This document shows, in pieces, positions 194-9,772 of a DNA stretch of 34,508 nucleotides. This stretch comes from Bacteroidota bacterium. GTDB taxonomy: Bacteria > Bacteroidota > Ignavibacteria > Kryptoniales > JAKASW01. The notes below the pieces were generated by a model. That model had not been told where the DNA came from. It saw only the letters and a program-made list of their open reading frames with translations, and did not search any database. The number at the start of each line of letters is the position of its first letter. The stretch's first letter is position 1. The position numbers and the translations under genes were made by a program. The stretch spans positions 1 through 34,508 of the forward strand of contig JAJZVO010000046.1 in assembly GCA_021845665.1 (NCBI GenBank), in the 5' to 3' direction.

Positions 194-2239
194 CTATTTC
201 GAGGGGGCTCCTCGTATACCTTCCACAATTGTCGGAAAAACCGAGATCCGCAACCTCGCGCATCCCATCGGCACGAGGGTAATCTTCTCGACAGGCTCAT
301 CCGATTTCACCGGACTCTCCTGCAATTCTCCGACCATACCGTTGCTCTCCAGTTTCCATTGAGGTATGAGTTTTCCTTCGGCTGTCAATTCAATCGGAGC
401 ACTGTCCAGATCGAACGGCTGTTTCGCCAACGAACCGGTCTTCTCCTCAACTTTGAATGAGCGGGAAGGATCTTCAAGATCTACTACGAGCCCGTAATTC
501 CATTTCGTCGTCGGGAAGACCTCGTATGCCGGCCACTTCTCCGTCCCGCCGTACTTCACCCATTTTTCTCCTATCTTCAGCGAGTAAGCAAGAGGGCCGC
601 GCATCACGGATACGGAGTTCATATCCTTCGTCCAGACCTTCACGGAAATTTCCATCGGAAGTGTAAGCGTAACGACGTCGCTGTTTTTCCATTCTCTCTC
701 GAGAGAAATCCAGCTATCGGGGGACGCGCCGACCTCAACATCTTTCCCGTTAATTTTGACACCCGCGTGCTTGCACCAGCCGGGAACTCGAAGCATCAAT
801 GGAAATTTCACGGGAGAGGATGCGGGGATTTTGAATTCAATCGCTCCCCTGAACGGATAGTCGGTAGCCTCTTCGATCTTCACGCGTGTACCATTTCCAA
901 CCTTCACATCGACACTGCTCGGTGCGTAGAGAACCGCGGCGACACCGTTGCCGCCGGTTGCCATCCAGAGATTTTCGGCGAAGTACGGCCAGCCGAACGC
1001 GACGTTGTGCTGGCAGCATCTGTAATCCCACGGGTCGTACGAGAACATGTCTCCGTCGTTTTCGATCATCGGTGCCTTGTTGGCGGTGTCGAGCTGAACC
1101 TGGTTTGGGGCGGTGAAGTAATGGAGCCCCCTGAGGTCGGGAGTCATGGAAGCGGGAAGAGAATTGAACGCGACGGTCTCGCATCGGTCTGCCCAGATCG
1201 ACTTTCCCGTGACACGCGTGAGCATCTCCGTGCTGTGCATCATCTCGACCATGGTGCACGTTTCGGTAGCCTGTCTCGCGCCGGTGTAACCCACCCGGCA
1301 ATCTTCGTCGGCTCCGTAGAGGCCGCCCGGCACCTGGCCGTATGTATCGATCACAGAATCGTAATTGTCGATCGTAGACTGGAGATATCGTCTGTCTCCA
1401 GTTAACTGGTAATATTCGGCCGGCTCCCTGAATCCTTCGGCGAGATTCACGCCGTGCCATGTCGGGATCCCGCCCTCCCAGTCCGCGGTCCTCTCATGGT
1501 TAACTCGTGCGACATCAAGAAGCCACTTTTCGCCGGTCTGGTTGTACAGCCAGATTATGTGCTCGAGGTTATCGCCGCCGCGCCATTTCTGCCAGCTACC
1601 GGGAAGTATGTTCGCGAGAGGCTGCCTGCTTATCCAGCGGAAGTAATTCGTCATGAACGGGATTACACGCTTGTCGCCTGTCGCCTCGTAATAGCTTCTC
1701 ATCACAAAGAGCATCAGCATGTTCGGCCAGATGTCGTGGTTGGCAAGATTCACGCGGGGTCCGAACCATCCGCTGGAATCCTGGCTCGCGAGCGTCGAGT
1801 CGATCCACTTTGTTGACTCGTCAATGATGCGCTTATTATGAAGTATATAGCCGAGGTCGGTGTATCCTCTCAACCAGTACGGCAGCTCTTCCCAGCCGTA
1901 GTCTCCCTCGCCCTCGCCGTTTGCCCAGGCGCTCACCTTTATGTTGCACCATTTGCTAATCTCGTCGAGGTGTCCCGTGAATCCGTCAGCCATGTAATCG
2001 AGCTGAGTCTTCAACCAGCCTTCCGGTTGGATCGCGCCTATCGGGAGTTTATAAAGCGGGCTTGGGATAAGCGGTTGCCTGTTTCCCTGGTAGAACGCGT
2101 TTGGGACAGCGACGGATGGCGTCTTCAGTACCTTCACGCTCACCTCGTCGCCGCCTGGTTGCTGTTGTCCAGCGGCGACCGAAATGACCGATAGGAAAAG
2201 AAGCATGAATGACGTGACCAGATGATTCCGGTTTTTCAT
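194..2239 (-). CDS. Secreted GH127-family beta-L-arabinofuranosidase (DUF1680)
   Basis: A 681-residue glycoside hydrolase. Residues 1-24 form a Sec signal peptide (positive start, hydrophobic core, cleavage near VAAG/QQ). The rest matches the (alpha/alpha)6-barrel DUF1680/GH127 family, whose characterised members cut terminal beta-L-arabinofuranose with a zinc-bound cysteine nucleophile. The zinc set is visible: Glu326 and Cys328 in ATETC, and Cys408-Cys409 in YRCCQHN. Acidic residues at 311-312 are placed like the family's acid/base. A beta-sandwich region follows from about residue 460. The ATG at 2239 has GAGGAG 7 bases upstream. The gene stands alone, with no SusCD pair or other sugar genes beside it here. 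The likely substrate is plant arabinan, arabinoxylan or hydroxyproline-linked arabinosides; the exact linkage is not readable from sequence. Family call is firm, substrate is inferred. Confidence 0.85.
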   Translation of the reverse strand: MKNRNHLVTSFMLLFLSVISVAAGQQQPGGDEVSVKVLKTPSVAVPNAFYQGNRQPLIPSPLYKLPIGAIQPEGWLKTQLDYMADGFTGHLDEISKWCNIKVSAWANGEGEGDYGWEELPYWLRGYTDLGYILHNKRIIDESTKWIDSTLASQDSSGWFGPRVNLANHDIWPNMLMLFVMRSYYEATGDKRVIPFMTNYFRWISRQPLANILPGSWQKWRGGDNLEHIIWLYNQTGEKWLLDVARVNHERTADWEGGIPTWHGVNLAEGFREPAEYYQLTGDRRYLQSTIDNYDSVIDTYGQVPGGLYGADEDCRVGYTGARQATETCTMVEMMHSTEMLTRVTGKSIWADRCETVAFNSLPASMTPDLRGLHYFTAPNQVQLDTANKAPMIENDGDMFSYDPWDYRCCQHNVAFGWPYFAENLWMATGGNGVAAVLYAPSSVDVKVGNGTRVKIEEATDYPFRGAIEFKIPASSPVKFPLMLRVPGWCKHAGVKINGKDVEVGASPDSWISLEREWKNSDVVTLTLPMEISVKVWTKDMNSVSVMRGPLAYSLKIGEKWVKYGGTEKWPAYEVFPTTKWNYGLVVDLEDPSRSFKVEEKTGSLAKQPFDLDSAPIELTAEGKLIPQWKLESNGMVGELQESPVKSDEPVEKITLVPMGCARLRISVFPTIVEGIRGAPSK

Positions 2240-2559
2240 GAGCTCACTCCTCGTTGGCAGGCTTCTGCGGACTGAATAGTCGAATAGTGGTTAAATCTAT
2301 TCCATAAACAGAGAGCAATTATTTGTCAGAGACATAAAAGCTTCTTCACACTTCACGCCGAAGGTCCGGCCTCGACGATCACAAATCTGACTGCCCGGCC
2401 GGGGAGCAGTGTCTCTTGAACAAGCGCTCCTCCAACTATCATTTGCTAATTCCATCAAGGAAGAAACCGGCGAAGTGCTCATTCCAATCCGCAGGATCCT
2501 TCGGACAATAATCTTGGCTGCACTTTGTTTGTCCCGCCTGGGGCGGGATTGGAATGGCA
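2240..2559. other. Intergenic stretch with a GTCCCGCC palindrome, no supported gene
   Basis: It holds the glycosidase ribosome-binding site and presumably its promoter, near 2240-2300. At 2531-2549 a GTCCCGCC-TGG-GGCGGGAT palindrome lies just beyond the end of the broken DUF5615 gene and resembles the core of the 123-148 hairpin. An 87-codon minus-strand frame crosses the region but has no recognisable domain and no good start, so I do not call it a gene. Confidence 0.4.
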
Positions 2560-2922
2560 CTAGCTTTCCTTTCCTCGAATGCGAATAGTCTCCTCTTCAA
2601 CTATCCACAGACGTTGGTCGACCGGTTCGGCTTCGATCGCCGAGAGAACCCTGGTGAACACCTTCACGACATGCGTTTTCCCCTGATTCCTGACTCTGAG
2701 GACGATGATTCCACTGGATTCTTCCGGCGGGTAAGCGCCGATATTCGAGAAATCTGTATCCAGACTGACAAGAACGCGATTCTCTTCCTTGCACAACCTC
2801 ACAAGGCTTCGATCATCAATGCCCTTGAGTTGCTAGCCGGCTACCGTTTTAGCATCGTGTCCCTTGTCAAGCAGGGACTGTGCGATTTCGACGGGCAGAT
2901 TTTCATCAATCTTGAATCGCAC
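2560..2922 (-). pseudogene. DUF5615 PIN-like toxin, broken by an in-frame TAG
   Basis: Reading from GTG at 2922 gives 120 residues that cover a full DUF5615 (PIN-like) protein, except that codon 30 (2833-2835) is TAG where the family has a sense codon. Before the stop are the N-terminal strand with the acidic motif FKIDENLP and the first helix. After it come IDDRSLVRLC, the conserved LVSLDTDFSN acidic motif, SSGIIVLR, and the C-terminal WIVEEETIRIR. DUF5615 proteins are putative ribonuclease toxins usually encoded beside a DUF433 partner, and a DUF433 remnant lies directly upstream in the same direction. The stop makes the toxin inactive unless it is read through or re-initiated at GTG 2802. 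A sequencing error is a possible alternative. Confidence 0.75.
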
Positions 2923-2928
2923 TTGTCA

Positions 2929-3099
<171 letters not shown>

Positions 3100-3138
3100 T
3101 TATCATGATTCCAATTGTTCCTCGGCAATCAATCGATA

Positions 3139-3164
3139 ATTCCACTATTCCAGCATTCCATTCC
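3139..3164. repeat. Short degenerate ATTCCA word repeat
   Basis: ATTCCACT-ATTCCAGC-ATTCCATTCC is an 8-base word repeated about three times just beyond the stop of the aldehyde dehydrogenase gene. It resembles one arm of the word-repeat hairpins elsewhere in the window, but no matching second arm is seen. Confidence 0.4.
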
Positions 3165-3171
3165 TCCGTCT

Positions 3172-4806
3172 CTACTTCTCTTGCATAAACGGATACCGGT
3201 AGTTCTTTGGAGGAACGAGGTTCTCCTTCGTGCTTCTTGGCGACATCCACCGCACCATGTTGAGGAAGCTGCCGGCCTTGTCGTTCGTCCCGCTCGCACG
3301 CGCGCCGCCGAACGGCTGCTGCCCGACGACTGCGCCGGTCGGTTTGTCGTTGATGTAGAAGTTGCCCGACGCATTGATAAGTATCCTGTTCGCGGTCGCG
3401 ACCGCGTACCTGTCGTGCGCGAAAACCGCTCCTGTCAGCGCGTAAGGCGAGGTCTCGTCGCAGAGATGGAGCGTCTCCTCGTACTTGTCGTCGTCATAAA
3501 CGTATATAGTCATGACAGGTCCGAAGATCTCCTCTTCCATCGTCTTGAAGTGCGGGTTCTTCGCGCGTACGATCGTCGGCTCGATGAAATATCCCTTCGA
3601 GTCGTCGTAGTTTCCGCCGGAGACGATTTCCGCGTCGCTCGACTTCTTCGCGTAATCGATGTACCCGGTTATGGTCGTGAAGGCGCCTTTGTCGATCACC
3701 GCGTTCATGAAGTTGCTGAAGTCGCGCGGGTCGCCCATCTTCACTGTTTTCAGTTCCTTCACCATGTAATCCTTCAGATCGGCCCAGAGCGATTTCGGAA
3801 TGTACGAGCGCGACGCGGCCGAACATTTCTGTCCCTGGTACTCGAACGCGCCGCGGATGATTGCGACGCCGAGCTCTTCAATGTCGGCGCTCTTGTGGGC
3901 GAAGATGAAGTCTTTGCCGCCAGTCTCGCCGACGATCCTCGGATAAGACTTGTAATTCGCGATGTTCGTCCCGACGGTCTTCCACATATCCTGGAACACT
4001 GATGTGCTTCCGGTGAAGTGGATTCCGGCGAGGTAAGGCGAGGTCATTGCCGGCCGTCCGACGGCTCCGCCCGGACCCGGTACAAAGTTGATCACTCCGG
4101 GCGGGACTCCGGCTTCTTTAAGTATCTGCATGATATGGTATGCCGAATAGACCGCACTCGAAGCGGGCTTGGAGAGGACGACGTTCCCGACCATCGCGGG
4201 CGCAGTCGGCAGATTGCCTGCGATCGATGTGAAATTAAAAGGCGATACCGCGAAGATAAATCCTTCGAGCGCACGGTATTCCATCTTGTTTCGCACGTCC
4301 ATCGGGGAGTGGGGCGGCTGCTGCTCGAAGAGCTGCATCGCGTAGTAGGCATTGAAGCGGAAGAAGTCGGTCAGCTCCGCCGCGGCGTCTATCTCTGCCT
4401 GGAATACATTCTTGCTCTGGCCGAGCATCGTTGCCGCGTTAAGTGTGTCGCGCCACGGTCCGGAGAGAAGCGCGGCGGCCTTCATGAATATCGAGAGCCG
4501 CTCTTCCCAGTCGAGCGCCGCCCATGCCGTCCGCGCGGCGAGGGCCGCCTGGATCGCCATGTTGACTTCCTTCTCGCCAGCCTGGTGATAAGTGGCAATG
4601 ACCGTTTTGTGGTCGTGCGGAAGAACACACTTCGCGATCTTACCGGTTTTAGTTTCTTCGCCGCCAATTATCAGCGGGATCTCGATCTGCTTGCCCTGCA
4701 TCTCTTCAAGTTTTGCTTTCAGAGACGCCCGCTCGGGTGAACCGGGGAGATAATTCTTCACCGGCTCGTTGGGCGGCATCGGTATTTCGTACTTTGCGTT
4801 TGGCAT
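3172..4806 (-). CDS. L-glutamate gamma-semialdehyde (P5C / 3-hydroxy-P5C) dehydrogenase, ALDH4 type
   Basis: A 544-residue NAD-dependent aldehyde dehydrogenase, close in length and motif order to mitochondrial ALDH4A1 rather than to the dehydrogenase half of PutA. The general-base Glu294 is in VGETGGKDF and the nucleophile Cys328 is in GQKCSAASRS. Cofactor-side motifs FAVSPFNFTSIAGN (about 185-198) and FTGSTSVF (264-271) are present, as is EEIFGPVMTIYVY near the C-terminal part. It oxidises glutamate semialdehyde to glutamate; ALDH4 enzymes also turn 4-hydroxyglutamate semialdehyde, from hydroxyproline, into 4-hydroxyglutamate. AAGGAG lies 10 bases before the ATG. It is the last of four same-strand genes (PRODH, HOGA-like, aminotransferase, this one), which suggests a combined proline/hydroxyproline breakdown role. 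Confidence 0.92.
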   Translation of the reverse strand: MPNAKYEIPMPPNEPVKNYLPGSPERASLKAKLEEMQGKQIEIPLIIGGEETKTGKIAKCVLPHDHKTVIATYHQAGEKEVNMAIQAALAARTAWAALDWEERLSIFMKAAALLSGPWRDTLNAATMLGQSKNVFQAEIDAAAELTDFFRFNAYYAMQLFEQQPPHSPMDVRNKMEYRALEGFIFAVSPFNFTSIAGNLPTAPAMVGNVVLSKPASSAVYSAYHIMQILKEAGVPPGVINFVPGPGGAVGRPAMTSPYLAGIHFTGSTSVFQDMWKTVGTNIANYKSYPRIVGETGGKDFIFAHKSADIEELGVAIIRGAFEYQGQKCSAASRSYIPKSLWADLKDYMVKELKTVKMGDPRDFSNFMNAVIDKGAFTTITGYIDYAKKSSDAEIVSGGNYDDSKGYFIEPTIVRAKNPHFKTMEEEIFGPVMTIYVYDDDKYEETLHLCDETSPYALTGAVFAHDRYAVATANRILINASGNFYINDKPTGAVVGQQPFGGARASGTNDKAGSFLNMVRWMSPRSTKENLVPPKNYRYPFMQEK

Positions 4807-4843
4807 TTCTGACTTTCTCCTTGTTTAATCCTCAGCGAAACTA

Positions 4844-4981
4844 AGTTCCAAACACCAAATTCCAAGTTCCAAACATACGTCAAGTTCCAAAATCAAAATC
4901 TGGAATAATTGCTACCCGTACAGAATTAGCCTTTAATTCTTGGCTATTTGGAACTTCCTTAGAGCTTGGTGTTTGGAAGTT
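4844..4981. repeat. Long imperfect inverted repeat of CCAAATTCC words
   Basis: The left arm (about 4844-4873) reads TTCCAAACACCAA... AAGTTCCAAA. The right arm (about 4947-4981), reverse-complemented, reads TTCCAAACACCAA... AAGTTCCAAA, with a few mismatched bases between. About 73 bases separate the arms, and these contain another CAAGTTCCAAAATC copy. The element fills the 188-base gap between the aminotransferase and aldehyde dehydrogenase genes. It could form an RNA or DNA stem in the operon transcript, acting on attenuation or mRNA stability, or be a dispersed repeat. No coding content is seen. Confidence 0.7.
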
Positions 4982-4994
4982 GGAGCTTACTGTT

Positions 4995-6107
4995 TCAGAG
5001 TGCATCTTTGAGAGCCTTGAGACACAATTTAATATTCTTCTCATTTGAAGTGTAGCCCATCAAACCGATCCGCCAGATTTTCCCGGCAAGCTGCCCGAGC
5101 CCGGCGCCGATCTCGATATTATACTTGTTAAGAAGGTGGTCTCTCACCGCAGCTTCGTTGACTCCATCCGGAACGGTGACAATCGCGAGTTCCGGGAGGC
5201 TCGACTCGCCGGTGACAAAGCTTTTGAGTCCGATCTTCTCGAGTCCCGCGCGGAACATCGCGGCGTTCTTTTCGTGACGCGCCCACGCTTTATCGAGTCC
5301 TTCCTCCTGCACGAGAAGAAGCGCCTCGTGAAGGCCGTACAGCGCGTTGATGGGAGCGGTGTGGTGGTACGTCCGTTTCGCGCCGCTCCAGTAACTCAGA
5401 ATGAGGCTGACATCCATGAACCAGCTGCTGACTTTTGTCTTTCTTTTCTTCACATAGTCCACCGCCCGATCGTTGAAAGTGATCGGCGAAAGACCGGGCG
5501 GGCACGACAGGCACTTCTGGCTTCCTGAATAAACGACGTCCAGCTCCCAGTCATCCACCTTAACGGGTATTCCGCCGAACGAAGTTACGGTGTCGGCAAT
5601 CGTGAGACATCCGTACTTGTGCGCGACCTTCGAGAGCGCAGCTATATCCGAGCGAGCGCCGGTCGAAGTCTCTGCGTGAACGAAGGCGACGACTTTCACA
5701 TCTTTGTTCTTGGACAGCGTGTCCTCGAGTTTTGCCGGATCGATCGGCTGGCCCCATGGGGCATCGACGACGACCGGGATTCCGCCGTGGCGTTCGACCA
5801 TTTCACGTATGCGTCCCCCGAAGGCGCCGTTCACGCAGACGGCGACTTTCATTCCGGGTTCAACCATGTTGGCAACGGCCGCCTCCATGCCGAGCGAGCC
5901 CGGACCTGAGATCGGGAACGTCACTTCGTTCTTCGTCAGGAACGTGTCCCTGAGGAGAACCTTCAGCTCGTCCATCATGCGTATGAATTCCGGGTCGAGG
6001 TGGCCGATTGTCGGACGCGCCATTGCCTGCAGAACTCTTGGATGAACGTTCGATGGGCCGGGCCCCATGAGGATCCTGTCGGGAGGACGAAAGGAATTAA
6101 TTTTCAT
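4995..6107 (-). CDS. Class V alanine/serine-glyoxylate aminotransferase
   Basis: A 370-residue PLP enzyme of the AGXT/serine-glyoxylate family. It starts with the family hallmark LMGPGPSNVHP. SGPGSLGMEAA near residue 68-77 binds the PLP phosphate, Asp172 in IADTVTSFGG contacts the ring nitrogen, and Lys198 in YSGSQKCLSCPPG forms the internal aldimine. An Arg near the C-terminus (KIWRIGLMG) is placed to hold the substrate carboxylate. It would convert glyoxylate plus alanine or serine to glycine plus pyruvate or hydroxypyruvate. I chose ATG 6107 because AGGAG sits 6 bases upstream; an in-frame start at 6155 adds 16 residues that overlap the DUF559 remnant and look unrelated. Its place beside a HOGA-like aldolase, which would make glyoxylate, supports glyoxylate as the amino acceptor. 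Confidence 0.88.
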   Translation of the reverse strand: MKINSFRPPDRILMGPGPSNVHPRVLQAMARPTIGHLDPEFIRMMDELKVLLRDTFLTKNEVTFPISGPGSLGMEAAVANMVEPGMKVAVCVNGAFGGRIREMVERHGGIPVVVDAPWGQPIDPAKLEDTLSKNKDVKVVAFVHAETSTGARSDIAALSKVAHKYGCLTIADTVTSFGGIPVKVDDWELDVVYSGSQKCLSCPPGLSPITFNDRAVDYVKKRKTKVSSWFMDVSLILSYWSGAKRTYHHTAPINALYGLHEALLLVQEEGLDKAWARHEKNAAMFRAGLEKIGLKSFVTGESSLPELAIVTVPDGVNEAAVRDHLLNKYNIEIGAGLGQLAGKIWRIGLMGYTSNEKNIKLCLKALKDAL

Positions 6108-6132
6108 GTGCATCTCCTGGTCTTTTTCAGCT

Positions 6133-6552
6133 TTAGAGACAGCCGTCAACATCACCCTCTCCCAAACCCTCTCCGTTCAAGGGAGAGGGGGCTTGCGACG
6201 CAGACAACCGAGCGGAAGCGTGTTCGAGTATATTCAGAATAACACCATCGGTGCTCGACATGATTTCATTATTGCTGAATCTCAAAACTTCGAATCCATG
6301 TTCACGCAGCCAACTGTCTCTATCGGCGTCTTTCTTCTTTTGTTCACCTTCATAGTGCTGGCGGCCGTCGGCTTCAACGATCAGCTTTTTTTCAAAGCAG
6401 ACAAAGTCGGCGATGAAAGGCCCGATTCGCTGCTGTCTTCTAAACTTCAGACCTTCCACTTGTTTACCTCAAAGAACTTTCCACAACTTCTTCTCCGAGT
6501 CGGTCATGCGCTTCCGGAGACCGCGAGCGATAGGAGTCAGTCGGCTCTTCAT
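6133..6552 (-). pseudogene. DUF559 endonuclease-like gene, broken by an in-frame TGA
   Basis: From ATG 6552, with GGAGGA 8 bases upstream, the frame encodes 139 residues of a DUF559 protein, a small restriction-like (Vsr-related) nuclease fold. Codon 28 (6469-6471) is TGA where an Arg (CGA) is likely. Before the stop is MTDSEKKLWKVL; after it come EGLKFRRQQRIGPFIADFVC, KLIVEADGRQH (catalytic-type E-x-D region), and the helix DRDSWLREHGFEVLRF. The C-terminus ends in PSPLNGEGLGEG, encoded by a palindrome. Re-initiation at GTG 6459 would give a 108-residue piece lacking the N-terminal helix. The gene sits between inverted GGGAGAGG-type palindromes (6151-6190 and 6562-6587) and interrupts an otherwise metabolic operon, which suggests insertion. 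Confidence 0.75.
6151..6190. repeat. Palindromic left end of the DUF559 cassette
   Basis: ATCACCCTCTCCC (6151-6163) leads into CCCTCTCC-GTTCAAG-GGAGAGGG (6167-6189), an 8-bp hairpin. It encodes the PSPLNGEG tail of the DUF559 protein on the other strand. The same motif, ATCACCCTCCC with a smaller hairpin, appears in opposite orientation at 6562-6587, so the pair resembles terminal inverted repeats. Confidence 0.55.
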
Positions 6553-6561
6553 TCCGATGAT

Positions 6562-6587
6562 CCTCCTTCAATTAAAGGGAGGGTGAT
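6562..6587. repeat. Palindromic right end of the DUF559 cassette
   Basis: CCTCCTT (6562-6568) pairs with AAGGGAGG (6575-6582), and the minus strand from 6587 reads ATCACCCTCCCTTTAATT. This is the inverted counterpart of the 6151-6190 end. It also contains the GGAGGA ribosome-binding site of the DUF559 gene. I see no clear target-site duplication just outside either end. Confidence 0.5.
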
Positions 6588-6617
6588 TACTGCCAGGAAG
6601 CATTTCCAACCACCGAC

Positions 6618-7499
6618 CTATTCAAGCAGTCCGGCAGTCTTTAGAATCGATTTCATATTCTCCCGTTCCCGGTCGCCGAGCGGCGCAAGCGGGCTTCTCG
6701 GCTCACCGCCGAAATAACCGAGCATATCCATGGCGGCCTTCAAGCCCGGTACGCCGTACTTTGAAGTCACTGCTTTGTTGACGGGAATCAGCTTCTTTTG
6801 AAGTGCCGAAGCCTCCTGATGCCGGCCGGCTTCAAAGAGCCGCTGAACCTCCACGCATTCTTCCGCCGCGATGTTGGCGAGCGCAAGTATGCCGGCCGTT
6901 GCACCAGCCGCAAGCCCGGGGTATAAGACGGATGCTGTGCCGACGATGACGGAGAAATCTTTGGGAACGGATGCGATCATCTCGGCGGTCTGTGCCGCAT
7001 TCTCAGAGCTGTTCTTGAGTCCGGCGATGTTCCCGTGTTTCGCGAGTTCAGCAACCGCGTCTGCTTGAATATCAACACCCGTAAACTTCGGCACGTTATA
7101 AATGACAATAGGAATCTTCGTTTTGTCTGCCACTTCAGTGAAGTATCTCACGAATGCAGCACCGTTCATCTGTCCCTTGTAGAAAGATGGAGTCAGAACC
7201 AGCGCGTAATCGGCACCGCGATCCGCAGCGTCGTTAGAAAGCGCAACGGCCTCCTTAATCGAATCCGATCCTGTCCCGGCGAGGAGCGACATTCCTGAAG
7301 CAAGACTCTTCTTTGCCGCCTCGACCAATTTCAATTTCTCGTCACGCGTGAGGTACGCGCTCTCGCCGTTGGAACCCATGACGACGTAGCCGCTGAGACC
7401 GCTCTTGTTCCAGCGTTTGATATTGTCCGCAAGTTTGTCGTAGGCCACCTCTCCACTAAAGAAAGGAGTGGTGACGGGAGGCATTATACCTTTGATCAT
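6618..7499 (-). CDS. 4-hydroxy-2-oxoglutarate aldolase-like (DHDPS/NAL superfamily)
   Basis: A 293-residue TIM-barrel class I aldolase. The Schiff-base Lys162 is in IAGLKNSSEN, the catalytic Tyr134 in IVIYNVPKFTG, and the carboxylate-binding loop is GSNGE (42-46). Among superfamily members it resembles animal HOGA1 most: PVTTPF near the start, TPSFYKGQM around 103-111, and the C-terminal KYGVPGLKAAMDMLGYFGG with R-x-PL. HOGA splits 4-hydroxy-2-oxoglutarate into pyruvate and glyoxylate, the last step of hydroxyproline breakdown in mitochondria. The neighbours (PRODH upstream, glyoxylate aminotransferase and ALDH4 downstream) fit that job far better than lysine biosynthesis. GAGGAAA precedes the ATG by 7 bases. 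The superfamily is certain; HOGA activity is inferred from motif similarity and context. Confidence 0.8.
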   Translation of the reverse strand: MIKGIMPPVTTPFFSGEVAYDKLADNIKRWNKSGLSGYVVMGSNGESAYLTRDEKLKLVEAAKKSLASGMSLLAGTGSDSIKEAVALSNDAADRGADYALVLTPSFYKGQMNGAAFVRYFTEVADKTKIPIVIYNVPKFTGVDIQADAVAELAKHGNIAGLKNSSENAAQTAEMIASVPKDFSVIVGTASVLYPGLAAGATAGILALANIAAEECVEVQRLFEAGRHQEASALQKKLIPVNKAVTSKYGVPGLKAAMDMLGYFGGEPRSPLAPLGDRERENMKSILKTAGLLE

Positions 7500-7533
7500 T
7501 TTTTCGTTTCCTCAAAGCAATAAGACAAAATCC

Positions 7534-7655
7534 TAAATTCGAATCCCTAAATCCTAAACAAATCCAAAATACAAATTCTAAAACCAACAATTCGGCCATT
7601 CGGGTTGGCGATTTTGAATTTTGAAAATTGTTTAGAGTTTCGGATTTCGAATTTA
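7534..7655. repeat. Long imperfect inverted repeat of AAATTCGAATCC words
   Basis: The left arm (7534-7588) begins TAAATTCGAATCCCTAAATC and ends ACCAAC. The right arm (7604-7655), reverse-complemented, begins TAAATTCGAAATCCGAAACT and ends GCCAAC, aligning along about 52 bases with scattered mismatches. The 15-base centre is AATTCGGCCATTCGG. It fills most of the 195-base gap between the proline dehydrogenase and HOGA-like genes, so it would lie in their shared transcript. Same architecture as 4844-4981 but different sequence. Confidence 0.7.
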
Positions 7656-7694
7656 GTGATTGATAGACATTCAAAGCTAACGTTAAAATTCCGG

Positions 7695-8624
7695 CTAACT
7701 GGAAAAGATATTCCTTACCACAAATCCCACGTTCGCCGGTCTCTCGGCGAGACGGCGGACATACCATTTGTACCACGCCTTGCCGTAACTGATGAGGACA
7801 CGAATGTTGTAGCCTTCACCAGCGAGACGCTTCTGCTCGTTCGGCTTGATCCCGTAGAGCATCTGTATCTCGACCTTCTCCTTCGGCACGCTTAAGTCGC
7901 CGGCTACTTTCATAATCTTTCTGTGCAGATCAGTATCATGAGTCCCGAACGCTGCCCGGACACCGTTATCTTGTATTCCCTTCAAAAGACGAGTTGAAAG
8001 CTCGAAGTAATATTTGTCCACATCTTCCTTGTCCGGGTACGCGATAGACGCAGGCTCGTTGTACGCTCCCTTCACCAATCTTACAAGCGGCGACATTTCG
8101 ATGAGACTTTCGAGATCCTTCTTCGTTCGCCGAAGATACGACTGCAAACAGACCCCCGCGTTCGAATAATCTTTCCTCACCTTCCTGTAAAGATCGAGAG
8201 TGGCGTCCACATAACTGCTTCGCTCCATGTCGATCCAAACGACGTTGTTGAGTTCCTTCGCCTTGATGGCGAGGGCCTTAAAGTTCTCGTAAGCATGATC
8301 GGTGGAGAGATCAAGACCGAGCTGAGTGAGCTTAACGGAAACTTCGATGTCAAGCTTCTCCCTCGCGATCCGTTCCAGCAGGCCGATGTAATGATCGCGG
8401 ACCTTAACGGCTTCGGAGAGGTCGATGATGCTTTCACCGAGGAATGTAAAAACCGTTGGGATGCCGTCACCCTGGAAAGTCTTCGCGGCCCCGATCGCGT
8501 CGTCGAGTTCCTCTCCAGGCATGAACCTCTTCAACGCCCTGCGGACGAACCGGTAGTTGGGAACGTGTTCGAGCAGATATTGATTTTCCGAAGCCCACAA
8601 AAGGATATTCCGCGAAAGTTCCAT
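7695..8624 (-). CDS. Monofunctional proline (possibly hydroxyproline) dehydrogenase
   Basis: A 309-residue FAD-dependent (beta/alpha)8 PRODH of the short bacterial type. Family motifs in order: VSVKLTQLGLD with Lys98, WIDMERSSYVDATL (130-143), CLQSYLRRT (159-167), VRLVKGAYNEP (181-191), FGTHD (226-230), IQMLYG (253-258) and the substrate pair Arg290-Arg291 in VRRLAERPANV. It oxidises proline to P5C, passing electrons to quinone at the inner membrane. The Tyr of the usual AYVPYG/VYVPYG motif, which packs on the substrate ring and disfavours hydroxyproline, is Leu277 here (RVLISYG). I chose ATG 8624 because AGGAG lies 5 bases upstream; the in-frame start at 8642 lacks such a site. It is the first gene of the minus-strand cluster. 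The leader region 8625-8923 is shared with a divergent AraC-MGMT gene. Confidence 0.9.
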   Translation of the reverse strand: MELSRNILLWASENQYLLEHVPNYRFVRRALKRFMPGEELDDAIGAAKTFQGDGIPTVFTFLGESIIDLSEAVKVRDHYIGLLERIAREKLDIEVSVKLTQLGLDLSTDHAYENFKALAIKAKELNNVVWIDMERSSYVDATLDLYRKVRKDYSNAGVCLQSYLRRTKKDLESLIEMSPLVRLVKGAYNEPASIAYPDKEDVDKYYFELSTRLLKGIQDNGVRAAFGTHDTDLHRKIMKVAGDLSVPKEKVEIQMLYGIKPNEQKRLAGEGYNIRVLISYGKAWYKWYVRRLAERPANVGFVVRNIFSS

Positions 8625-8923
8625 TCGTGCTCCTGTTTTCATGAAACATAATCTAAGAAATTGAGGAGGCGATTCCCGCTTTCACACCGTTCAATCTGCG
8701 CGCGATGGTATACAAGCGCCAATCGTCGACAGCAACGGGGCACGCGACACCGGGTCGAACGAACGAATCTAACACCCTGGAATGAATTTTTCGACCCTCG
8801 CCTTGGCCGTTCCTTTAAAATCACAGAAGCCCGGGGTTTCGACGAGTAATTCTCGGCAAAGATAAGCAAGAATCGGGTTTGCTGCGGGAGAGATTCGTAA
8901 TAAATTCTTGTTGAGGAAAGAAA
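8625..8923. other. Divergent intergenic region, no supported gene
   Basis: It separates proline dehydrogenase (minus) from the AraC-MGMT gene (plus) and must hold both promoters. I see no convincing paired -35/-10 boxes. A plus-strand frame at 8661-8849 ends in the plausible peptide WNEFFDPRLGRSFKITEARG, but nothing upstream in that frame looks coding and I recognise no family; at most it is a gene remnant. Confidence 0.3.
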
Positions 8924-9772
8924 ATGAACGATTACGAAAGAGTAGCAAAGGCAATATCATACATCGGCACGCATTTCCACCAGCAGCCGGATCTCGAAAG
9001 GGTCGCCGGAGAGATTCACTTGAGCCCCTTTCACTTCCAGCGGCTGTTCAAGAAATGGGCGGGAGTCAGCCCGAAAAAGTTTCTCGAATACATAAGCATC
9101 GAACACGCAAAGTCGCTCCTGAAGAAGCAGGCTTCCCTGTCGGAGGCAAGTTTCGAAACCGGACTTTCCGGAACCGGGCGGCTACACGATCTCTTCATCA
9201 AAATAGAAGGGATGACTCCAGGGGAGTTCAAGAACGGCGGAGAGAACCTGGTCATAAACTACAGCTTTTCCAAAACGCCTTTCGGCAACATAATAGCTGC
9301 ATCGACGGCAAGAGGAATCTGCCACCTCTCATTCGCGGATGACGAAGAGATTGCTTTGCGGCGATCGCGTGACAGATTTCCGAAAGCCACGTTCGTTAAG
9401 AAACGCGACGTGCTCCAGACCGATGCCCTGCGAATATTCGAGGATGACTGGAGTAATCTCCCGAGGGTCAGGCTTCACCTGAAAGGTACTCCGTTCCAGA
9501 TAAAAGTCTGGGAGGCTCTTCTGAAAATACCTTTCGGCCGCATCACCACTTACGCTCGTATTGCAGAGACGATCGGGCAACCAACTGCAACGCGCGCGGT
9601 CGGAACGGCTATCGGCAGCAATCCCGTCGCGTACTTGATTCCATGTCACCGCGTGATCAGGTCGACGGGGGCAATCGGCCATTATCACTGGGGGAACGCA
9701 CGCAAAGTGGTAATTGTCGGATGGGAAGCAGCGAGACTGGAGCGCAGGTCGAGCCCGGATCGGTGCGAATGA
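8924..9772 (+). CDS. AraC-type regulator fused to O6-methylguanine-DNA methyltransferase (Ada-like)
   Basis: A 282-residue two-domain protein. Residues 1-103 are an AraC helix-turn-helix pair (DLERVAGEIHLSPFHFQRLF, then the second helix pair ending GMTPGEFKNGG). Residues 110-275 are an MGMT domain, with FQIKVWEALLKIPFGRITTY (191-210), the Arg-finger region RAVGTAIGSNP (224-234) and the alkyl-acceptor Cys241 in IPCHRVI. It repairs O6-alkylguanine by irreversible transfer to Cys241. Unlike E. coli Ada it has no N-terminal zinc methylphosphotriester domain, so the usual switch to activator by Cys methylation is absent; how it would sense damage is unclear. The ATG at 8924 follows GAGG at 7 bases. 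Confidence 0.9.
   Translation: MNDYERVAKAISYIGTHFHQQPDLERVAGEIHLSPFHFQRLFKKWAGVSPKKFLEYISIEHAKSLLKKQASLSEASFETGLSGTGRLHDLFIKIEGMTPGEFKNGGENLVINYSFSKTPFGNIIAASTARGICHLSFADDEEIALRRSRDRFPKATFVKKRDVLQTDALRIFEDDWSNLPRVRLHLKGTPFQIKVWEALLKIPFGRITTYARIAETIGQPTATRAVGTAIGSNPVAYLIPCHRVIRSTGAIGHYHWGNARKVVIVGWEAARLERRSSPDRCE

Follow-up and report, generated by a model that had tools for sequence, protein, structure and literature searches.

A conserved bacterial gene cluster predicted to degrade hydroxyproline by a mammalian-type route

Can the route by which mammals break down hydroxyproline be encoded in a bacterial gene cluster? In mammalian mitochondria, the enzymes PRODH2/HYPDH, ALDH4A1, GOT2, HOGA1 and then AGXT act on this compound; the classical bacterial Lhp pathway consists of 4-hydroxyproline epimerase, D-hydroxyproline dehydrogenase, a deaminase and ketoglutarate semialdehyde (KGSA) dehydrogenase. 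According to passages of PMC5144071, mammals convert trans-4-hydroxy-L-proline to pyruvate and glyoxylate, and a number of bacteria convert it to alpha-ketoglutarate. The question is raised by four genes on a contig of 34,508 nucleotides (JAJZVO010000046.1) from a Bacteroidota bacterium. This whole stretch, here called the window, corresponds to contig C40 in a draft genome (handle G000) of 4.64 Mb, which is 95.6% complete. On the minus strand, the genes are arranged in the following order:

8642-7695, minus strand: paralogue of proline dehydrogenase (PRODH), predicted 4-hydroxyproline dehydrogenase (PF01619, 109 bits; residue mapping on PutA; AlphaFold2 model)
7499-6618, minus strand: HOGA1-type class I aldolase, predicted to cleave 4-hydroxy-2-oxoglutarate into pyruvate and glyoxylate (PF00701, 197 bits; human HOGA1 in the PDB)
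6107-4995, minus strand: AGXT-like class V aminotransferase, predicted to convert glyoxylate to glycine (PF00266, 99 bits; PDB entry 1vjo)
4806-3172, minus strand: ALDH4A1-type L-glutamate-gamma-semialdehyde dehydrogenase, also named P5C (pyrroline-5-carboxylate) dehydrogenase or P5CDH (TIGR01236, 798 bits)

These are the four same-strand families that an earlier note on this DNA had named, as confirmed by the open reading frames (ORFs) and the profile matches listed. The locus holds candidates for four of the five activities of the mammalian-type pathway. We consider it probable that the cluster is a dedicated hydroxyproline-catabolic operon and a new bacterial variant of that pathway, all catalytic steps of which we infer from sequence. 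The cluster PRODH, using flavin adenine dinucleotide (FAD), would oxidise trans-4-hydroxy-L-proline to 3-hydroxy-pyrroline-5-carboxylate (3-hydroxy-P5C), which would hydrolyse spontaneously and be converted to 4-hydroxyglutamate by P5CDH with nicotinamide adenine dinucleotide (NAD). 4-Hydroxy-2-oxoglutarate (HOG) would then be formed either by the AGXT-like enzyme or by a transaminase with its gene outside the locus, the aldolase would split HOG into pyruvate and glyoxylate, and the AGXT-like enzyme would turn glyoxylate into glycine. This reading is founded on the genes present, their conserved linkage, diagnostic residues, the second PRODH of the genome and hydroxyproline-specific neighbours in relatives; the stereochemistry of the substrate and its source, collagen-like or other hydroxyproline-containing peptides, are presumed.

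Linkage in relatives and the substrate pocket of the cluster PRODH

Recurrence of the genes in relatives had been set beforehand as a test of the cluster proposed in the earlier note, and the linkage passed it. Public loci were fetched by similarity to HOGA, and the best 80 of 167 were used; in 58 of them the aldolase is at least 50% identical to that of the window, in 22 it is below this value. Among the former, 48 of the 57 loci with room have a PRODH gene immediately upstream in the same orientation (median spacing 40 bp, 48 pairs). Downstream of the aldolase, AGXT follows within 4 kb in 33 of 51 and P5CDH within 6 kb in 19; the complete set of four genes is present in 15 of 58. One carrier of such a locus is the named strain Stygiobacter electus 09-Me (L063). 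Because the arrangement recurs in so many of the related loci with room upstream, the co-location of PRODH and aldolase is not due to chance. At the scores used, PRODH, AGXT and P5CDH are missing from those positions in all 22 loci with less than 50% identity; a weak AGXT-family match (30-32% identity, under the score of the positional count) occurs somewhere in four of them (L088, L089, L099, L102).

In a sample of 41 genomes, close HOGA relatives (at least 66% identity) were found in 12, namely the window's own, 10 of the 12 other members of the genus, and one of another family; G021 has a HOGA relative of 45% identity without the other cluster genes. The four genes stand together and in order in nine of the 12 (the window's own, G005, G006, G008, G009, G010, G011, G012 and G036), at identities down to 55-72% in G036. 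G001 possesses HOGA-AGXT-P5CDH without PRODH at the locus, and in G003 HOGA and P5CDH are located where a contig ends. The linkage of the cluster is conserved within Kryptoniota/Ignavibacteria. In G002, a member of the same genus without HOGA, a P5CDH gene lies beside a truncated PRODH (C4:59820-62424, L151), which looks like a decayed copy of the cluster.

Two PRODHs were found in the window's genome, the cluster copy and a second one at C10:66208-66966. Their residues were mapped on E. coli PutA (from NC_000913.3) in an alignment of 91 rows, in which one fragment was unreadable. According to passages of PMC10651016, proline in the PRODH pocket is surrounded by FAD, Tyr540, Tyr552 and Leu513, and Tyr540 has been linked to the preference for proline over hydroxyproline (as cited in passages of PMC3718742); the title of PDB entry 3e2q names a PutA Y540S mutant with trans-4-hydroxy-L-proline. 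The cluster PRODH has Leu283 for Tyr540, Trp293 for Tyr552 and Thr66 for Asp285, and retains the catalytic and flavin-site residues that were checked, with K104, D138, Y194, L262, R296, R297 and E300 at the positions of PutA K329, D370, Y437, L513, R555, R556 and E559. Leu and Trp at the two tyrosine positions occur in 51 of 51 readable HOGA-adjacent PRODHs, and Thr at Asp285 in 50 of 50; all 39 other PRODHs, among them the copy on C10, have Tyr, Tyr and Asp at 540, 552 and 285. Thus, two of the three pocket residues around the substrate are altered in every readable HOGA-adjacent enzyme. These 51 Leu-type sequences are related and not independent, and since the 80 loci were fetched by HOGA similarity and overlap with several of the genomes that bear G handles, their association of Leu with HOGA is partly given by construction. 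The 41 genomes were sampled without regard to HOGA and allow a less biased test: the search with PF01619 yielded 50 matches, comprising 10 Leu-type and 39 Tyr-type sequences plus one fragment without the key column, and a HOGA gene lies beside 10 of the 10 readable Leu-type and 0 of the 39 Tyr-type genes.

The pocket is changed at the residue tied to the exclusion of hydroxyproline, which is suggestive of a preference for hydroxyproline, and such a preference is predicted on this basis. The best NCBIfam match of the cluster PRODH is NF045947 (ProDh_Thermus) with 256 bits, under the cut-off of 500. Its AlphaFold2 model (predicted local distance difference test score, pLDDT, 89.1) shows the PRODH barrel fold and superimposes on Thermus PRODH 2g37 with Z 38.1 and a root-mean-square deviation of 2.1 over 295 aligned residues; the alignment used for modelling held 18 of 30 listed PRODHs, and three of the 12 omitted ones contained a stop in the range used. 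In the PRODH tree, with PutA as sole outgroup, the Tyr set forms a clade (0.98), and the node joining the Leu set has a support of 0.086, so that the Leu state may have had one or several origins. Taken together, the Kryptoniota/Ignavibacteria probably possess a distinct bacterial subfamily of hydroxyproline dehydrogenases (Thr/Leu/Trp at 285/540/552), co-operonic with a HOGA1-type aldolase; the mammalian route would have been assembled in bacteria with a dehydrogenase of their own, and in many relatives it would be part of a hydroxyproline/collagen-peptide island with HypD, trans-3-hydroxyproline dehydratase and prolyl peptidases.

A competing explanation holds that PRODH and P5CDH, the usual proline pair, carry out ordinary proline catabolism beside an unrelated glyoxylate/pyruvate aldolase and aminotransferase. 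It would agree with a P5CDH that is the only copy found and with G006, which has only a cluster-type PRODH. The Tyr-type PRODH on C10, the exchanges at two of three substrate-contact positions and the adjacency of PRODH and HOGA kept in 48 of 57 loci render it improbable, and plain proline catabolism was set aside in view of the first two of these observations.

The aldolase, P5CDH and the aminotransferases

When all PDB sequences were searched with the window aldolase, human HOGA1 (3s5n, 3s5o) was the best match with 231 bits; the next one, a dihydrodipicolinate synthase, reached 152 bits, about 79 bits less. Passages of PMC3188589 name Lys196, Tyr168, Tyr140, Ser77, Asn78, Ser198 and Gly222 as key residues of the human enzyme. 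The window protein has S43, N44, Y107, Y134, K162, S164 and G187 at the positions of Ser77, Asn78, Tyr140, Tyr168, Lys196, Ser198 and Gly222; it therefore retains the class I Schiff-base lysine (K162), the proton relay of Tyr168 and Ser77 (Y134, S43), and the HOG-binding Asn78 and Ser198 (N44, S164). Within a HOGA clade of 83 sequences, human HOGA1 included, Ser77, Asn78, Tyr168 and Gly222 are invariant, Lys196 and Ser198 are each found in 82 (Arg in L102 and Thr in L096, respectively), and the position of Tyr140 is occupied by Tyr in 73 and Phe in 10 cases.

The DapA clade consists of 27 sequences, including E. coli DapA and the separate DapA that the window's genome encodes on C119. In all 27, and so also in the C119 protein, Arg occupies the position of Arg138, which binds aspartate semialdehyde in DapA, and Thr occupies that of Asn78; 26 have Ala at that of Ser198 (Ser in L183). 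The window aldolase lacks these hallmarks: F139 replaces Arg138, and the G-X-X-G-E motif reads GSNGE and does not contain Thr-Thr. Moreover, its TIGR00674 score of 192.5 is below the cut-off of 206.15. A DapA identity is contradicted because the residues differ and the genome has a DapA of its own; it was ruled out on these grounds and by the TIGR00674 score, in agreement with the earlier description of the aldolase as HOGA1-like. With members acting on 2-keto-3-deoxygluconate (KDG) and NanA members included in the comparison, sequence and residues point to a HOGA-type enzyme, for which cleavage of HOG is predicted.

The tree calculated with FastTree gives the DapA clade a support of 0.991, places human HOGA1 within a bacterial HOGA-like clade (0.98), and groups the PRODH-linked aldolases as a clade of 55 sequences (0.927). 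Human HOGA1 is not adjacent to this linked clade; its neighbours (0.82-0.905) are sequences without the linkage, whose records are titled Chloroflexi, Anaerolineae, Thermoflexales and Deltaproteobacteria. This placement is provisional because the sequences were sampled by similarity to the window protein. HOGA active-site residues without a link to PRODH were seen in L081, L083, L085-L090, L092-L099 and L101-L109, with single exceptions in L096 and L102. The records of such homologues are titled Chloroflexi, Desulfobacterales, Deltaproteobacteria, Clostridia and, in some cases, Ignavibacteria.

P5CDH exceeds the equivalog cut-off of TIGR01236 (798 versus 613.6 bits), and its PDB matches are 4idm with 604 bits and mitochondrial P5CDH with 577 bits. 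It is the only copy found in the genome (E<=1e-100) and is therefore probably common to the proline and hydroxyproline routes; in mammals, ALDH4A1 serves both. The AGXT-like protein matches the alanine-glyoxylate aminotransferase 1vjo with 376 bits and the serine-pyruvate aminotransferase 1h0c with 258 bits. It belongs to the AGXT-type family, being of class V with alanine-glyoxylate aminotransferases as closest solved relatives, and its use of glyoxylate is predicted. The genome contains 15 PF00155 matches (class-I aminotransferases), of which six were typed by scanning their matched stretches; for the two of greatest relevance, the whole ORF was scanned as well.

In the earlier note the cluster had been called animal-type. 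This description fits the proposed route and the HOGA family membership of the aldolase; it does not extend to the origin of the genes, as neither the PDB matches nor the HOGA tree gave a sign of animal origin: PRODH is near the Thermus/Deinococcus enzymes, AGXT is closest to 1vjo, P5CDH prefers 4idm slightly over its mitochondrial counterpart, and human HOGA1 stands among unlinked bacterial homologues.

Neighbouring genes and the remaining alternatives

By best match over the 80 loci, the neighbours comprise a Xaa-Pro aminopeptidase in 19 (19 of 48 loci with PRODH versus 0 of 32 without), HypD in 12 (11 versus 1), a radical-SAM activase in nine (8 versus 1), PF05544 proteins in 11 (10 versus 1), an S37 peptidase in eight (7 versus 1) and a POT transporter in six (4 versus 2). 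A looser clustering within 7 kb over 82 loci gave 26 Xaa-Pro aminopeptidases; the value of 19 is used here. The HypD representative reaches 1320 bits with NF043068 (cut-off 1100), its activase stays below the cut-off (310 versus 425), and the Xaa-Pro aminopeptidase representative passes the Pfam cut-offs for PF00557 and PF05195 but not the equivalog cut-offs. All 11 PF05544 neighbours resemble trans-3-hydroxyproline dehydratases, having Cys and then Thr at the two catalytic positions, a pair which we take as the mark of these enzymes.

Among the 41 genomes, HypD (NF043068, E<=1e-100) was found in seven, in one of them as a fragment, and PF05544 (E<=1e-10) in one; in the genus members G005, G008 and G011, HypD is located away from the HOGA locus. 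Neither search gave a match in the window's genome, where absence is not certain at 95.6% completeness. As far as this draft shows, the classical Lhp pathway and HypD were rejected for this genome. In G040, a class relative, about 2.5 kb separate a DHDPS-family gene from a gene of the PF05544 epimerase family (C40:147820-152138 of that genome), and the two may represent a hydroxyproline cluster of the classical Lhp type. Because oxygen harms glycyl radical enzymes, the HypD and HOGA routes may serve different conditions.

The joint occurrence of HypD and HOGA-type genes at 12 loci, which would be redundant for one substrate, also bears on a second alternative, in which the same enzymes act on a different 4-substituted proline or isomer, such as cis-4-hydroxy-L-proline or a hydroxyproline from peptide antibiotics, and HypD takes trans-4-hydroxy-L-proline where present. 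Free natural hydroxyprolines may stem from peptide antibiotics rather than collagen, as passages of PMC5144071 suggest; the same passages call trans-4-hydroxy-L-proline the commonest isomer. Since, in addition, HypD was not found in the window's genome and the Xaa-Pro peptidases and peptide transporters of relatives point to peptides, we have little belief in such a substrate. Least probable is an aldolase for a sugar acid or another 2-keto-4-hydroxy acid, linked to the other genes by general pyruvate/glyoxylate metabolism: PF00701 is functionally diverse, no NCBIfam equivalog cut-off was reached, and unlinked homologues with the same residues occur in records titled Chloroflexi and Desulfobacterales, but sequence and residues favour HOGA, the gene specifically adjoins a modified PRODH, and the known metabolite that connects both families is HOG.

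Several observations weigh against a dedicated hydroxyproline operon. In the NCBIfam scan, PRODH, aldolase and AGXT reach no equivalog cut-off. The 4-hydroxyglutamate transaminase is absent from the locus, and the most aspartate-aminotransferase-like of the six typed proteins (C36:15093-16142) is under every NCBIfam cut-off (NF041091, 333 versus 550 for the whole ORF). The position of Asn173 in human HOGA1 is occupied by Phe139 in the window aldolase. As the HOGA residues are also found in homologues that lack the link to PRODH, these alone are no proof of hydroxyproline metabolism; and a KDPG/KHG-family aldolase is also present in the genome, so HOGA may not be the only enzyme on which HOG cleavage depends. 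As G006 (100% complete) has only a Leu-type PRODH, this type may also use proline. Three of the 12 genomes with a HOGA of the linked clade show no Leu-type PRODH (G001, G003, G004), G004 having HOGA alone of the four genes at its locus, and AGXT of G011 is split into two frames. Where HypD and HOGA share a locus, one of the two routes would be superfluous, and in none of the same-genus loci L030-L038 were HypD, PF05544, the peptidases or POT found. Finally, the intergenic gaps of 188-510 bp make co-transcription in the window, which is likewise presumed, not obvious.

These gaps measure 195 bp between PRODH and aldolase, 462 bp between aldolase and AGXT (510 from the ATG), and 188 bp between AGXT and P5CDH. 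The most likely start of AGXT is the ATG at 6107, which follows AGGAG, a GTG at 6155 being less favoured; PRODH starts at 8642 or 8624, and a GGAG motif precedes the ATG of both P5CDH and AGXT. The interval between aldolase and aminotransferase contains a broken ORF with an in-frame TGA (6156-6617, minus strand), which resembles a DUF559/Vsr-like endonuclease domain; in L033, the same interval holds a similar ORF and one of 539 amino acids that appears transposase-like by eye. Divergent from PRODH, an AraC-type regulator domain is fused to an O6-methylguanine methyltransferase domain (8924-9772, plus strand; Ada-like), and such a fusion is also located upstream of the cluster in four of 13 relative loci (L017, L018, L023, L026). 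Between P5CDH and the next gene, remnants with in-frame stops (2240-3171, minus strand) look like what we assume to be a DUF433 antitoxin/DUF5615 toxin pair. That next gene is:

194-2239, minus strand: GH127-family protein with a signal-like N-terminus, judged by eye (PF07944 and PF20736; best PDB match 4qjy, 64.6 bits)

The earlier note had seen here an arabinofuranosidase fitting growth on plant glycoproteins. The protein belongs to GH127 but is distant from solved beta-L-arabinofuranosidases, the match to 4qjy covering part of the chain, and the gene adjoins P5CDH in only two of 13 relative loci besides the window (L020, L022). It is a neighbour whose membership in the hydroxyproline system and whose plant link are weak.

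Significance and comparison with known systems

Among the matches listed in openly licensed full-text literature there was no description of a bacterial PRODH-HOGA operon, which is weak evidence of absence. If the proposed pathway is correct, a lineage-wide bacterial operon for a mammalian-type route would break the division of hydroxyproline products between mammals and bacteria, and the Leu-type enzymes would be natural variants with which the proposed role of Tyr540 in PRODH specificity could be tested. The cluster would provide bacterial models of enzymes behind primary hyperoxaluria targets (PRODH2, HOGA1, AGXT) and indicate that environmental bacteria which are poorly cultured may draw carbon from hydroxyproline-containing peptides. 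The sequence signature could also correct the annotations "proline dehydrogenase" and "dihydrodipicolinate synthase".

With the mammalian pathway the cluster shares the enzyme families and their inferred order, the HOG-binding residues of the human aldolase, and a P5CDH of the TIGR01236 equivalog; in contrast, the bacterial genes are clustered, the dehydrogenase is closest to PRODH of Thermus/Deinococcus, and the locus lacks the transaminase. The Lhp pathway has the substrate trans-4-hydroxy-L-proline in common with the proposed route, but it yields alpha-ketoglutarate (passages of PMC5144071) and no member of PF05544, the family of its epimerase, turned up in the window's genome. The HypD route adjoins the cluster in 12 of 80 loci and differs in its chemistry, a glycyl radical dehydration as opposed to the reactions of PRODH and HOGA; it, too, was not found in this genome. 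Engineered E. coli PutA Y540S (3e2q) resembles the cluster PRODH in having lost the pocket tyrosine tied to hydroxyproline discrimination, whereas the cluster enzyme is a natural one, which carries Leu at this position and, in addition, Trp at 552 and Thr at 285.

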